From the IMG/VR virus record IMGVR_UViG_3300021420_000010, positions 1-41,999 of that record: a DNA stretch of 41,999 bases; one strand, 5' to 3'. Of the stretch, positions 16,833-22,062 are shown one piece after another. Source of the DNA: a virus. Each line of letters begins with the position of its first letter. The first letter of the stretch is position 1. Made by a program: the position numbers and the translations under genes. Below the pieces are notes generated by a model. That model saw only the letters and a list, made by a program, of their open reading frames with translations. It made no database searches and was not told the DNA's origin.

Positions 16833-17444
16833 ATGACACGCGAAGAATGGCTGAATATGGCAAGCGCCTACGCTATCCGCCATATCGAATCATCTGCTAA
16901 GGTCTCGCTACAGACTGCTGTGCGCTTTAGCTGTGGCTTCCCTGGTGGACGGGGAGCAGGTAATAAGACGATTGGACAGTGTTGGCCGACTGAATTGTCC
17001 GCTGATCAGACTGCTGAGATATTCATTAGCCCCGTCCTGTCAGACGGATTACAGGTACTTGCAGTCATGGTGCATGAGCTAGTGCATGCGATTGTAGGCT
17101 GTCAGCGTGGTCACAAAGCCCCGTTTGCTAAGGTAGCTAAAGCATCAGGGCTAGAGGGTAAAATGACTAGCACTGTCGCTAGTATGGGACTACTGGTGAC
17201 TATGGGTGGATGGCTGGAAGCGCTTGGCGCGTATCCTCATGCGGCTCTTAGCACAGCAGGCCGTAAGAAACAGTCTACGCGGCTGCTTAAGGCATATTGC
17301 GCGCATACAGGCGCAGCCGACGATAAACCCTACACAGTACGTATCACGCAGAAATGGGTTACGGAATTGGGCGCGCCGCTTTGTCCGTGTCACAATAGGT
17401 CCATGCATGTAGATGGGCAGGACAGCGAAGAGGGGGACGAATAA
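16833..17444 (+). CDS. SprT-like zinc metallopeptidase
   Basis: 203 aa. MVHELVHAIVGCQRGHKAPF contains the zinc-binding HExxH (81-85) and a third ligand H94, followed by KVAKASGLEG, as in SprT/Spartan-type peptidases. The C-terminus has CAHTG (C156) and LCPCH (C184, C186, H187), a second zinc site like the ribbon after SprT domains. Family members cut proteins, including DNA-bound ones in the Spartan branch. In a phage it may remove host or protein-DNA crosslinks; this is inference. GGAG precedes the ATG and the operator-promoter at 16754 precedes the gene. Confidence 0.75.
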   Translation: MTREEWLNMASAYAIRHIESSAKVSLQTAVRFSCGFPGGRGAGNKTIGQCWPTELSADQTAEIFISPVLSDGLQVLAVMVHELVHAIVGCQRGHKAPFAKVAKASGLEGKMTSTVASMGLLVTMGGWLEALGAYPHAALSTAGRKKQSTRLLKAYCAHTGAADDKPYTVRITQKWVTELGAPLCPCHNRSMHVDGQDSEEGDE

Positions 17445-17523: not shown

Positions 17524-17958
17524 ATGACCAATATGACCGCGTTTAAACTTGCAGCTATCCTGATAGTGGAAGCGCTAGGTATAGCGCACTGTACCAGCGC
17601 TAAGGCTGCGGAATATGCTAGCGCTGAAGCTGCTGCAAAAGCAGGCATCGCAGAATGTATAGCACAGTCTATTGTGCTGGAATACGCTGGGGCTGTGTAT
17701 ACGCTCAATGGAGCGTACTTCTATACGGCTCCAGTCACATCTGGTAGTGATAGGGAAGTAACGGAGTATAAACTGCGTATCCCCGGCAATGCTAAACTAG
17801 TAGCGCTGTTTCATACGCATCCTAAGAGTCTCACTAACGATACATCTGACAGTGTATCTGAACAGGACAAGGACACTGCCAAAAAAATGCATTTACAATC
17901 TTTTATCGGTGTGATAAAGTCGCGGCAAGTCTTGATTTATACCCCGAGGACAATGTAA
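17524..17958 (+). CDS. secreted JAMM/JAB-type peptidase (DUF4329-like)
   Basis: 144 aa from ATG 17524, which has GGAG nine bases upstream; the longer open frame to 17413 lacks an SD. Residues 1-29 form a signal peptide with a likely cleavage at SAKA-AE. The rest matches the JAMM pattern: E53 (VLEYAGAVYTLNGAYFYTAP), HTHP at 97-100, and S112-x2-D115. These are the ligands and acid of zinc isopeptidases. Such enzymes cut peptide or isopeptide bonds; the export signal suggests action in the periplasm. GTTTAAAC lies at codons 6-9. Confidence 0.7.
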   Translation: MTNMTAFKLAAILIVEALGIAHCTSAKAAEYASAEAAAKAGIAECIAQSIVLEYAGAVYTLNGAYFYTAPVTSGSDREVTEYKLRIPGNAKLVALFHTHPKSLTNDTSDSVSEQDKDTAKKMHLQSFIGVIKSRQVLIYTPRTM

Positions 17959-18721: not shown

Positions 18722-20284
18722 ATGCCAGCACTAATTAGTACTCCGCAGACGGTTGGCGGTATAACATATAATACAGCGCATTTCCATCCCCTAAACGATG
18801 GGATCGAGGATGGAGATTGTTGTATTACCGCAATGGTACAGGCAGCTAAAGAGGGGCGCGCCTCATATACAGGCGAGGATGCCTGCGTCAAAGCGCGCCT
18901 AGCGGTCATACAGCGACTGCATATGATAAATTATCTATCATTGCCCCCTATTATTAGGACGTATCTATTCAAAGGTACAGGCATATCGCGCGAGCCAAGC
19001 TCGCCAAATCACTACAGTATAGCCATAAGCGGTACAGCTTATAGCGACGATACAGGGACAAGCCATCATGTACGCATTGCTGTGGCTTATCTTATAGATC
19101 ATAATTACAGCGGGCCAAGACCGCGCGAACCAGAATATTTAAACAATTATTTTTACCCTGCCCTGCAGGCAGCAGATGCTGCATGGGCGCGCATGCAAAC
19201 ATCGTTTGTATGTATTGAGTGCGAGGATTCTATAACCCCTCCGCATAGTGGTAGCGTATATTTGCGTAGAGGGCAGTTAGATAATAATACCCCCCCTAAT
19301 ATGTGCGCGGGGTGTTTCGCTTCTCAGTATGTCTACAGTAATGTGCAAGGTATGTACATAGTCCGCGACGACGCTATAGAAGTAAGTGCCGTAGGCTGGG
19401 TAACTGAGGAATACGCTAGCGAAAACTTCTATATGCAGGAGGACGGCTATTATTCAGCTGAACAGCCTTCTAGCCGTAGGCTAATGGAATACTCCGCAGA
19501 TCCATTCCATACCTTTGCATGGGACACGCGCAATAAGCCGAATGCTTTGGTGTTTGGCGTTGAGTTAGAAATGGAGCATATAAACCCCTCAGGAGCCAAT
19601 CAGCAAGCGCTGGTGACGGCGCTCGGCGGCAGCAGAGGAAAGAACTTCATTCTTAAGAGCGATAGCAGTTTAAACTACGGAGTAGAATTGGTCACTATGC
19701 CCTTCACGCTGGCACAGCACCTAGACGGCTCCGGAGTAGATTGGAAAGCTGTACTTGATAGCGTCAAGGATATAGGCCGCAGCGGGGTCGCAACTAGCAG
19801 TTGCGGTATTCATATACATATCAATAAAAAGGCGCTGAGTGCTCTTACCATAGGCAAGATGCTGGTATTCTTGAATGATCCAGGATTAGCGCCTCTTATC
19901 ACTACGATAGCGCAACGTCCCTCAAGTCACTATTGCACGCGAAGCGCGAAGAAAATGACAGACGGGTCGCGCTCCAGCGAAAGCCGGTACGACATTATGA
20001 ATGTCTCTGTTAGACATCCTACTTGCGAACTACGCATGTTCCGTGGCAATCTGACTGTTGAACGGATGTACAAGAATCTAGAATTCTGTCATGCGTTGGT
20101 GCAGTATTGCAGGCAGTCAAGTATGCGCACTCTGACAGACTGGGGAGCATTCTCCCAGTGGATGATTAAAAATCGGGGAACGTATCCTAATCTGGTACGA
20201 TTCCTGATCGACCAAAAGACCGTAGGATTTAGGCAGCTAGCACGCGATAGTCGCGACGGCCAAGTAACCATTCGTGACAAATAA
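18722..20284 (+). CDS. amidoligase-family enzyme with N-terminal zinc module
   Basis: 520 aa. Residues 275-470 show the amidoligase (glutamine synthetase-like) core: FGVELEME (278-285), KSDSSL (312-317), ELVTMPF (322-328), CGIHIHIN (361-368) and ELRMFRGNL (436-444). These ATP-dependent enzymes form amide bonds between carboxylates and amines. The N-terminal 270 residues are unusual and hold a CxxC...CxxC zinc knuckle (C164, C167, C195, C198). The next gene is a class-II glutamine amidotransferase, a pairing described for amidoligases, which would feed ammonia from glutamine. AGGAAAAG precedes the ATG. Substrate unknown. Confidence 0.75.
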   Translation: MPALISTPQTVGGITYNTAHFHPLNDGIEDGDCCITAMVQAAKEGRASYTGEDACVKARLAVIQRLHMINYLSLPPIIRTYLFKGTGISREPSSPNHYSIAISGTAYSDDTGTSHHVRIAVAYLIDHNYSGPRPREPEYLNNYFYPALQAADAAWARMQTSFVCIECEDSITPPHSGSVYLRRGQLDNNTPPNMCAGCFASQYVYSNVQGMYIVRDDAIEVSAVGWVTEEYASENFYMQEDGYYSAEQPSSRRLMEYSADPFHTFAWDTRNKPNALVFGVELEMEHINPSGANQQALVTALGGSRGKNFILKSDSSLNYGVELVTMPFTLAQHLDGSGVDWKAVLDSVKDIGRSGVATSSCGIHIHINKKALSALTIGKMLVFLNDPGLAPLITTIAQRPSSHYCTRSAKKMTDGSRSSESRYDIMNVSVRHPTCELRMFRGNLTVERMYKNLEFCHALVQYCRQSSMRTLTDWGAFSQWMIKNRGTYPNLVRFLIDQKTVGFRQLARDSRDGQVTIRDK

Positions 20285-20296
20285 GAGAGTTTAAAC

Positions 20297-21424
20297 ATGT
20301 GCTTAATTGCTTATAGTCCTCAAGGGACGATGATAGATCGCTCGATTCTGGCGTATGCTCATAACCAGAATCCGGACGGCATAGGTATTATGTCCAAGGC
20401 TGGGATACAAAAGTTCCTAGGGCATAAAGCGCTTAAGCGCGCTAGAAGGTATATGGAAGCCTATATAGCTCCGGAAAAGATTCCCTATGCTATACACTTT
20501 CGTTGGGCTACACACGGCGAAGTAGGTGTAGCTAACACACACCCTTATGTGTCTCCAGAGAAAACACATGCTGTAATGCATAATGGTGTTATAAGCCTCA
20601 CTACTGCTGAAAGCAGTAAAGCGGAGTCTGACACTGCTGTATTCGTTCGTAAGTACATGGACAGCATTCAGCCTTATGATGATGCTGCTTACTGGCGCGG
20701 TATTGAAACTAAAATTACATGGGGCAGCAAGCTTTGCATTATGAACTTTGAGGGAGCGTTTAAGCTTTGTAATGAGAATGCGGGCGAATGGATAAACGGG
20801 ATATGGTTCAGCAACACTTATAGTTTGCCTGCGCATGCTGTCCCTCGCAGGGAGTATGTGTATCAAGATACATGGTATAGGGGTACACGTAGCAGCCCTA
20901 CTACTGGATACGTCAACACGTACAGTAAGGATATATGGGACTATGAAACGAACAGTTTCCAGCCTAATCCTAACTATGTTCCTTATATCCCTAAGGAAAT
21001 ATGGGACAAGACGGAAGGTAAAATGGTTCCTAATCCGGAGTATAAAGCTGCGGACGACGCGTCTGTAGTTTGTATGGGCAATAAGGATTTCCCTAACAAG
21101 GATCACAAGCCGGTCAACCTGATTGAATGGCGCGCGCGGAAGGCCGCAGCCGAGCATGGTGTATGGTCTGGCGAGGATCGCCGCAGCTACTACGAAAGCC
21201 TAGAAGCCGGTCTTACGCCCCAAGAGGCGGAGTATTACGACATCGGCACTGTCGCAGCTAGGGCCGCGGAAGCGGAGCTAGAGCGCGCGATCGAGGAAGA
21301 TATTCCCACAATGAAAGACGTAGCGCCTATAGGGGGAGACTTCCCCGAGGAGCAAACAGCCGAGGAGCGGCAAGACTGGAAAACATATCTTTCCGAAGTA
21401 GCAGCAGGGATACATAACTCATGA
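20297..21424 (+). CDS. class-II glutamine amidotransferase
   Basis: 375 aa. Cys2 right after the initiator Met is the N-terminal nucleophile. NPDGIG (24-29), HFRWATHG (67-74), NTHPY (80-84) and MHNG (94-97) are the glutamine-binding and oxyanion motifs of the Ntn-type GATase fold, which ends near residue 180. The C-terminal 195 residues contain repeats such as KDIWDYETNSFQPNPNY and KEIWDKTEGKMVPNPEY and an acidic helical end. The start codon directly follows GTTTAAAC (20289-20296). The enzyme would release ammonia for the adjacent amidoligase. Confidence 0.8.
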   Translation: MCLIAYSPQGTMIDRSILAYAHNQNPDGIGIMSKAGIQKFLGHKALKRARRYMEAYIAPEKIPYAIHFRWATHGEVGVANTHPYVSPEKTHAVMHNGVISLTTAESSKAESDTAVFVRKYMDSIQPYDDAAYWRGIETKITWGSKLCIMNFEGAFKLCNENAGEWINGIWFSNTYSLPAHAVPRREYVYQDTWYRGTRSSPTTGYVNTYSKDIWDYETNSFQPNPNYVPYIPKEIWDKTEGKMVPNPEYKAADDASVVCMGNKDFPNKDHKPVNLIEWRARKAAAEHGVWSGEDRRSYYESLEAGLTPQEAEYYDIGTVAARAAEAELERAIEEDIPTMKDVAPIGGDFPEEQTAEERQDWKTYLSEVAAGIHNS

Positions 21425-22062
21425 AGTTTAAACAGTACATGGATTATGTCTCTAAGCATGTCCCTCCTAAGAGTGACAAGCCTAGCGATATTGTGCAGAG
21501 TCTTACATGTCTTATTGCTACTCGCCTTAGCGCCTCTAATAAGCTGCCTATAGCTTGTGGCAAAGGTAAAGACTTAGACATGGACATAGTCCAAGCGGGA
21601 CTAGTAGCCGGCCTTGCTAAGGCGCCTAGGCATGATGCCTCAAAGGGCACACTGCAGCAGTTTCTATACTCTGATATTGCTGGTGCTATGCTTAACTATG
21701 CCTGGGAACGAGAGAATAGAGTCAGCGATAGCCGTCCTAGAGATTGGCCCGAGGTTATGGGTAGCGACTACGGAAGCACGGACAATGACGAGATGCCTAG
21801 ACAGTTAGTGGACGACCAAAACGCAGAGAGTGCCATGATAGCCGAGGAAGACCGCGAAACCGCCAGGGAAGCTATTAGCGCGGCGATCGATAACATGTCC
21901 GCCGAGGACATCGACATGCTTATGCGAGACGCTAAGATCGGCTATAATGCGGCCCTACGCCAAGCGTGGGCAGCAGAGATAGGCGTCACAATCGGAGCGC
22001 TGTCAATGAAACTCAGCAGGCTCCGCCGACGTGCCCGAGAATGGGCATTGACAGTACAGTGA
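21421..22062 (+). CDS. sigma-70-like RNA polymerase sigma factor
   Basis: 213 aa. MDIVQAGLVAGLAKAPR, HDASKGTLQQFLYSDIAGAM and LNYAWERENR (54-100) match sigma region 2, which binds the polymerase clamp and melts the -10. AISAAIDNMSAEDIDMLMRD (151-170) and a helix-turn-helix AWAAEIGVTIGALSMKLSRL with RRRARE (182-207) match region 4. Region 3 is replaced by an acidic linker, as in ECF-like factors. With no phage polymerase in the genome, it likely redirects host polymerase, perhaps to late promoters. Start overlaps the previous stop (ATGA); GTTTAAAC covers codons 2-5. Confidence 0.72.
   Translation: MKFKQYMDYVSKHVPPKSDKPSDIVQSLTCLIATRLSASNKLPIACGKGKDLDMDIVQAGLVAGLAKAPRHDASKGTLQQFLYSDIAGAMLNYAWERENRVSDSRPRDWPEVMGSDYGSTDNDEMPRQLVDDQNAESAMIAEEDRETAREAISAAIDNMSAEDIDMLMRDAKIGYNAALRQAWAAEIGVTIGALSMKLSRLRRRAREWALTVQ

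Follow-up and report, generated by a model that had tools for sequence, protein, structure and literature searches.

A predicted amidoligase and class-II glutamine amidotransferase pair in the genome of a VpV262/Zobellviridae-like podophage

Genes for an amidoligase and a class-II glutamine amidotransferase (GATase) lying side by side have been described in phiEco32, the LUZ24-like phages, Marvin, MEP401/402, the RIO-1-like phages and others (PMC3890496, PMC5498523, PMC10580990). The papers take up a prediction by Iyer et al. (2009; cited in PMC10580990) that such genes either modify cell-wall peptides and so block superinfection, or make metabolites. A role in nitrogen and amino acid metabolism has been proposed for Phage-ZRK32, which carries such genes and for which growth effects were reported (PMC10945688). 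No biochemical test of any member of an amidoligase-GATase pair was found in the literature searched. An earlier note on the DNA considered here stated that pairs of this kind are known and predicted to make amide bonds, and this stands, with the qualification that the pair is already published in many phages together with a cell-wall or peptide hypothesis. The present pair is a further member of that known family and nothing new as a system.

In the cassette of phiEco32 and LUZ24 an Amidoligase_2 gene adjoins that of a class-II GATase in the replication arm of a podophage, and the same arrangement is seen in the stretch analysed here (hereafter the window), which is the entire IMG/VR virus record IMGVR_UViG_3300021420_000010, 41,999 bases in length. 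LUZ24 gp18 aligns with the profile of the window amidoligase family with a probability of 95%, but it has no long N-terminal extension and the LUZ24 cassette contains additional genes for a COOH-NH2 ligase, a RimK-like protein and a cyclotransferase. In MEP402, as in the window, the genes run amidoligase, GATase, primase, helicase, polymerase (PMC10580990), and the Methylophilales phages MEP401/402 and other Zobellviridae-like phages also share with it an N-terminal extension that is long and carries CxxC pairs. However, the MEP401/402-type N-terminal part belongs to another class, is about 290 aa long and cannot be aligned with the window N-terminus, and in many relatives of this type the pair is immediately followed by a RimK-like ATP-grasp gene, where the window has none. 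Mycobacteriophage Marvin likewise has an adjacent amidoligase and GATase (gp105-gp106) and a CxxC module preceding its amidoligase domain, although identity to the window proteins is 27-30% and the host and genome type are unrelated.

The phage genome and the neighbours of the pair

The earlier note took the DNA to be that of a phage and this is borne out by the complete record, in which a leftward arm encodes the terminase, portal and major head proteins and a rightward arm the primase, a DnaB-like helicase, a DNA polymerase and exonucleases. The DNA polymerase is 37-39% identical over its full length to those of the VpV262-group vibriophages and it is because of this that the window is assigned, by sequence, to the VpV262/Zobellviridae-like podophages. 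The amidoligase and GATase genes are located in the rightward replication arm, 5' of the primase gene, and it is from this position among the replication genes, opposite the structural arm, that the pair may be regarded as belonging to an early region. No Rfam RNA was found near the pair and promoter-like and terminator-like sites were no more frequent there than in shuffled sequence. Further along the same arm, 31614-32084 (+ strand) encodes a DUF4406 protein (E 2e-16).

The gene following the pair (21421-22062, + strand) overlaps the end of the GATase gene by 4 bases (ATGA) and encodes a divergent, weakly sigma-factor-like protein of 213 aa (E 0.02-0.03), a relative of which is found 3' of the GATase in locus L009 (L009:7308-7700; pairwise E 2e-7); it may be regarded as an operon neighbour of the pair. 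In the same arm, outside the core pair, 17524-17958 (+ strand) encodes a JAMM/DUF4329 metallopeptidase-like protein with an HTHP...S..D motif and a signal-peptide-like start, whose homologue in locus L010 (L010:4056-4514) is encoded by a gene overlapping the start of the amidoligase gene. A search of the PADLOC defence library gave no match save a weak JAB match to this 17524-17958 gene. An SprT-like HExxH protein of PHROG 6361, a group with no annotated function, is encoded at 16833-17444 (+ strand), and its homologue in L010 (L010:2631-3293, 47% identity) is also upstream of the pair.

The amidoligase and its GATase partner

The two open reading frames are found at the positions given in the earlier note, adjacent and with the key residues of their families in place. 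The amidoligase gene (18722-20284, + strand) encodes a protein of 520 aa consisting of an N-terminal part (residues 1-150), a zinc-like module (about 160-215) and a domain resembling glutamine synthetase (GS; residues about 265-502, encoded by 19514-20227, + strand). It matches Amidoligase_2 (PF12224) with E=3.1e-9 and 37.5 bits, passing the Pfam cut-off of 22. Its PHROG matches are 16683 (E=3.6e-26) and 2443, 'amidoligase enzyme' (E=3e-11). Its score against the NCBIfam YbdK model is far under the cut-off. A scan of IMG/VR with this single protein yielded no close relative. In an alignment of 33 sequences the residues G279, E281, E283, D314, E322, H364, R399, E436, R438 and F440 are invariant.

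When the amidoligase profile was compared with the sequences of solved structures only chance matches were obtained, and the fold was therefore checked by structure prediction. The AlphaFold2 model, built from the 33-sequence alignment, is confident at residues about 250-500 and poor over the first 160, and YbdK and glutamine synthetases occupy the top Foldseek ranks. The earlier note had tied its amidoligase reading to a GS-like fold of residues 275-470, and it is the GS/GCS fold that was found: residues 272-502 match YbdK with a Z of 12.8 and glutamine synthetases with a Z of about 12, with an rmsd of 3.2-3.7 A (VIA-align) and a sequence identity of about 10-16%. The window protein thus shares with YbdK and glutamine synthetase the fold and the active-site constellation of the catalytic domain, but these have no zinc module. 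An HH alignment with E. coli GlnA places GIHIH on GMHCH and CELR on IEVR, pairing H364/H366 with H-x-H and E436/R438 with E-x-R, with E 0.0015 and a probability of 17%, which is low because the target is one single sequence. Inspection of motifs indicates that E281/E283 are the counterpart of the E-x-E found in GlnA and YbdK, and that the spacing of D314 and E322 is that of the second Glu pair of GlnA. We take it from these comparisons, in part alignment and in part motif and spacing, that the amidoligase keeps an intact GS-type metal/ATP site.

The extra N-terminal part with its four-Cys module is present (C164, C167, C195 and C198; CIEC ... CAGC, 19211-19315, + strand) and is predicted to bind zinc. 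The earlier note did not recognise the module, but it is in fact recurrent in the family, most relatives having it in the form of one to many CxxC pairs. Its composition makes it an unlikely chance product, as two CxxC motifs occur in about 0.8% of shuffles of the window N-terminal part, and the pLDDT at the two Cys-bearing blocks is about 80 and 73. Two or more CxxC are found in 63 of 74 nonredundant amidoligase extensions, compared to about 19 expected from shuffles and to 13 of 351 other long ORFs. From the second CxxC of the window onwards, through the catalytic domain, the L011 protein can be aligned with 39% identity, and the alignment with a gut phage protein containing six CxxC begins at residue 151. 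For residues 1-150 no relative was detected, nor was any fold found among the PDB matches listed for this poorly modelled region, and a profile built from N-terminal parts of the Zobellviridae type did not match the window N-terminus. The extensions of the family comprise one large class from marine phages, a second class of zinc arrays and, besides these, a number of small groups and singletons, among which is the window extension. In view of these varied classes and the recurrence of CxxC, the front end looks, by sequence comparison, interchangeable across the family, and it may determine the choice of substrate or partner. The amidoligases of L020, L022, L036 and L047 have very long zinc-finger-like arrays ahead of the catalytic domain, with 16-18 CxxC motifs.

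The GATase gene (20297-21424, + strand) encodes a protein of 375 aa with a glutaminase domain (residues 1-176) and a tail (177-375) that is both poorly conserved and poorly modelled. Its match to GATase_6 (E=4e-5, 24.1 bits) falls below the Pfam cut-off of 27 and for this reason the assignment to the class-II GATases is based on the fold and the invariant residues. The residues invariant among 25 sequences (C2, R69, T72, H73, N96, G97 and D112) are the class-II signature, and the pLDDT of residues 1-176 is mostly above 90. The best Foldseek matches to this domain are the glutaminase domains of GlmS and GFAT (GlmS 1e-7), all of the Ntn-hydrolase fold. The class-II assignment of the earlier note is therefore upheld by a GlmS-like Ntn fold in which Cys2 and all the signature residues are intact. 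Decay of the amidoligase and GATase genes was considered and rejected, as their active sites are intact.

Pairing, spread and fuller cassettes

The two genes of the window are separated by 12 bases; both have plausible ribosome-binding sites, that of the GATase being the sequence AAGAGAG. A scan of IMG/VR using the GATase alignment alone as query found 404 loci, the best 80 of which were examined for pairing, and in 74 of these 80 an amidoligase gene was directly upstream, with gaps mostly between -10 and +20 bases, a rate that is biased upwards since the query was made from amidoligase-paired proteins. The gene-neighbourhood search that the earlier note had proposed thus finds the pair to be recurrent in phages. 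Of the remaining six loci, three begin too near a contig end for an upstream gene to be judged, one has the amidoligase downstream and two (L061 and L087) are without it over the stretch covered. Distances in the domain trees of the amidoligase and GATase are correlated (r 0.48, a value reached in none of 500 label permutations), as expected for co-travelling partners, although shared vertical history alone could also give this result. L106 seems at first to encode an amidoligase-GATase fusion but is not counted as one, for there is an internal Met-Cys GATase start and the linker resembles read-through of another frame. Two tandem pairs are present at each of two loci (L039:4319-9175 and L096:6121-10181).

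Phages carry the pair commonly, across widely differing hosts, and it is found also in bacterial genomes and on plasmids. The cellular carriers, several Actinobacteria and Firmicutes, include Eggerthellaceae, Adlercreutzia, Collinsella, Nocardia, Labedaea, Mycolicibacterium and Ruminococcus-type bacteria, and the plasmids are mycobacterial. Resolvase, relaxase or transposase genes are close by at some of the plasmid and cellular loci, and a Pfam scan of the cellular neighbours of the pair revealed no consistent partner.

A RimK-like ATP-grasp gene was found in 35 of the loci examined (e.g. L043:6915-7664), downstream of the pair or close to it and often with a 4-base overlap with the GATase gene, but a profile of 31 homologues gave no match in the window. 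No gamma-glutamyl cyclotransferase was matched in the record, whereas control genomes did match, and neither the record nor any control genome matched the COOH-NH2 ligase model, which does detect LUZ24 gp16. It is because none of these three was detected that the window is read, by sequence search, as carrying a reduced two-gene cassette of amidoligase and GATase. Such a stripped-down pair, lacking recognised extra ligases or a cyclotransferase, provides a clean start for establishing the core reaction and its target, and the zinc-module front end, in varying over the family, hints at where the choice of substrate may reside.

The likely reaction and its possible targets

Comparison of sequences or structures supports the folds, the active sites, the pairing and the modular N-terminus, and it is probable that the pair constitutes one two-subunit, glutamine-dependent, amide-forming enzyme, a statement that concerns the type of reaction and not the target. 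In the scheme that we infer, the two proteins would form a complex in which Cys2 of the GATase, N-terminal after removal of Met, would split glutamine to release ammonia. The amidoligase would bind Mg-ATP in its glutamine-synthetase-type site and activate a substrate carboxylate as an acyl phosphate, and ammonia transferred from the partner would be joined to this to give a primary amide. The module, with zinc bound, and the variable N-terminal part would most likely serve in substrate selection or docking. It is the GATase partner that points to ammonia as the nitrogen donor, for the GS fold serves gamma-glutamyl ligases too. Both target and benefit to the phage are matters of conjecture; the leading guess for the former, carried over from the published prediction, is a peptide precursor of the host cell envelope, of the peptidoglycan type, and it is put forward tentatively.

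As the main alternative, the same reaction might be directed at a macromolecule of host or phage, either a protein or a nucleoprotein, which the zinc module would recognise and which amidation would inactivate or retune, for instance in host takeover or counter-defence. This is somewhat unlikely. The family is marked by zinc-like CxxC modules (as many as 18 CxxC per protein), but modules of this sort also serve in protein-protein assembly or stability. The presence of the pair on plasmids and at cellular loci, in some cases near mobility genes, and the sigma-like gene after the GATase in both the window and L009 would fit such a target, but against this the defence library gave nothing beyond the weak JAB match to a neighbouring gene. 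The more specific version, a reduced two-gene amidation system of phages and other mobile elements in which swappable zinc-module front ends aim carboxylate amidation at a host protein or nucleoprotein, the modification serving to take over the cell or to disarm it, is to be considered unlikely.

An alternative that dispenses with ammonia transfer is that the GS-like enzyme is a gamma-glutamyl ligase, coupling glutamate to an amine, and the GATase-like protein a gamma-glutamyl amide hydrolase, as with EgtA and EgtC in ergothioneine synthesis. The nearest folds of the amidoligase do include GCS-type ligases (YbdK and plant GCL), EgtC is among the fold matches of the GATase and some of the fuller phage cassettes contain a gamma-glutamyl cyclotransferase. 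However, EgtC is outranked by the glutaminase domains of GlmS and GFAT, the strict adjacency of the genes better suits a two-subunit enzyme and no cyclotransferase was detected in the window, and the ligase and hydrolase reading is judged quite unlikely.

As both folds belong to glutamine metabolism, the pair might alternatively aid nitrogen assimilation or amino acid synthesis in the host, as has been suggested for Phage-ZRK32, but the growth effects seen with that phage were obtained with the whole phage and not with these genes (PMC10945688). Moreover, the host normally has such activities, and zinc-type modules in the domain architecture speak for one specific target; this explanation is very unlikely. 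Hypermodification of bases in the phage DNA is highly improbable, since thymidylate synthase-like, hydroxymethylase and other base-modification genes were not recognised in the ORFs scanned, although the pair does lie in the replication arm and class-II GATase domains are known from some base-modification enzymes.
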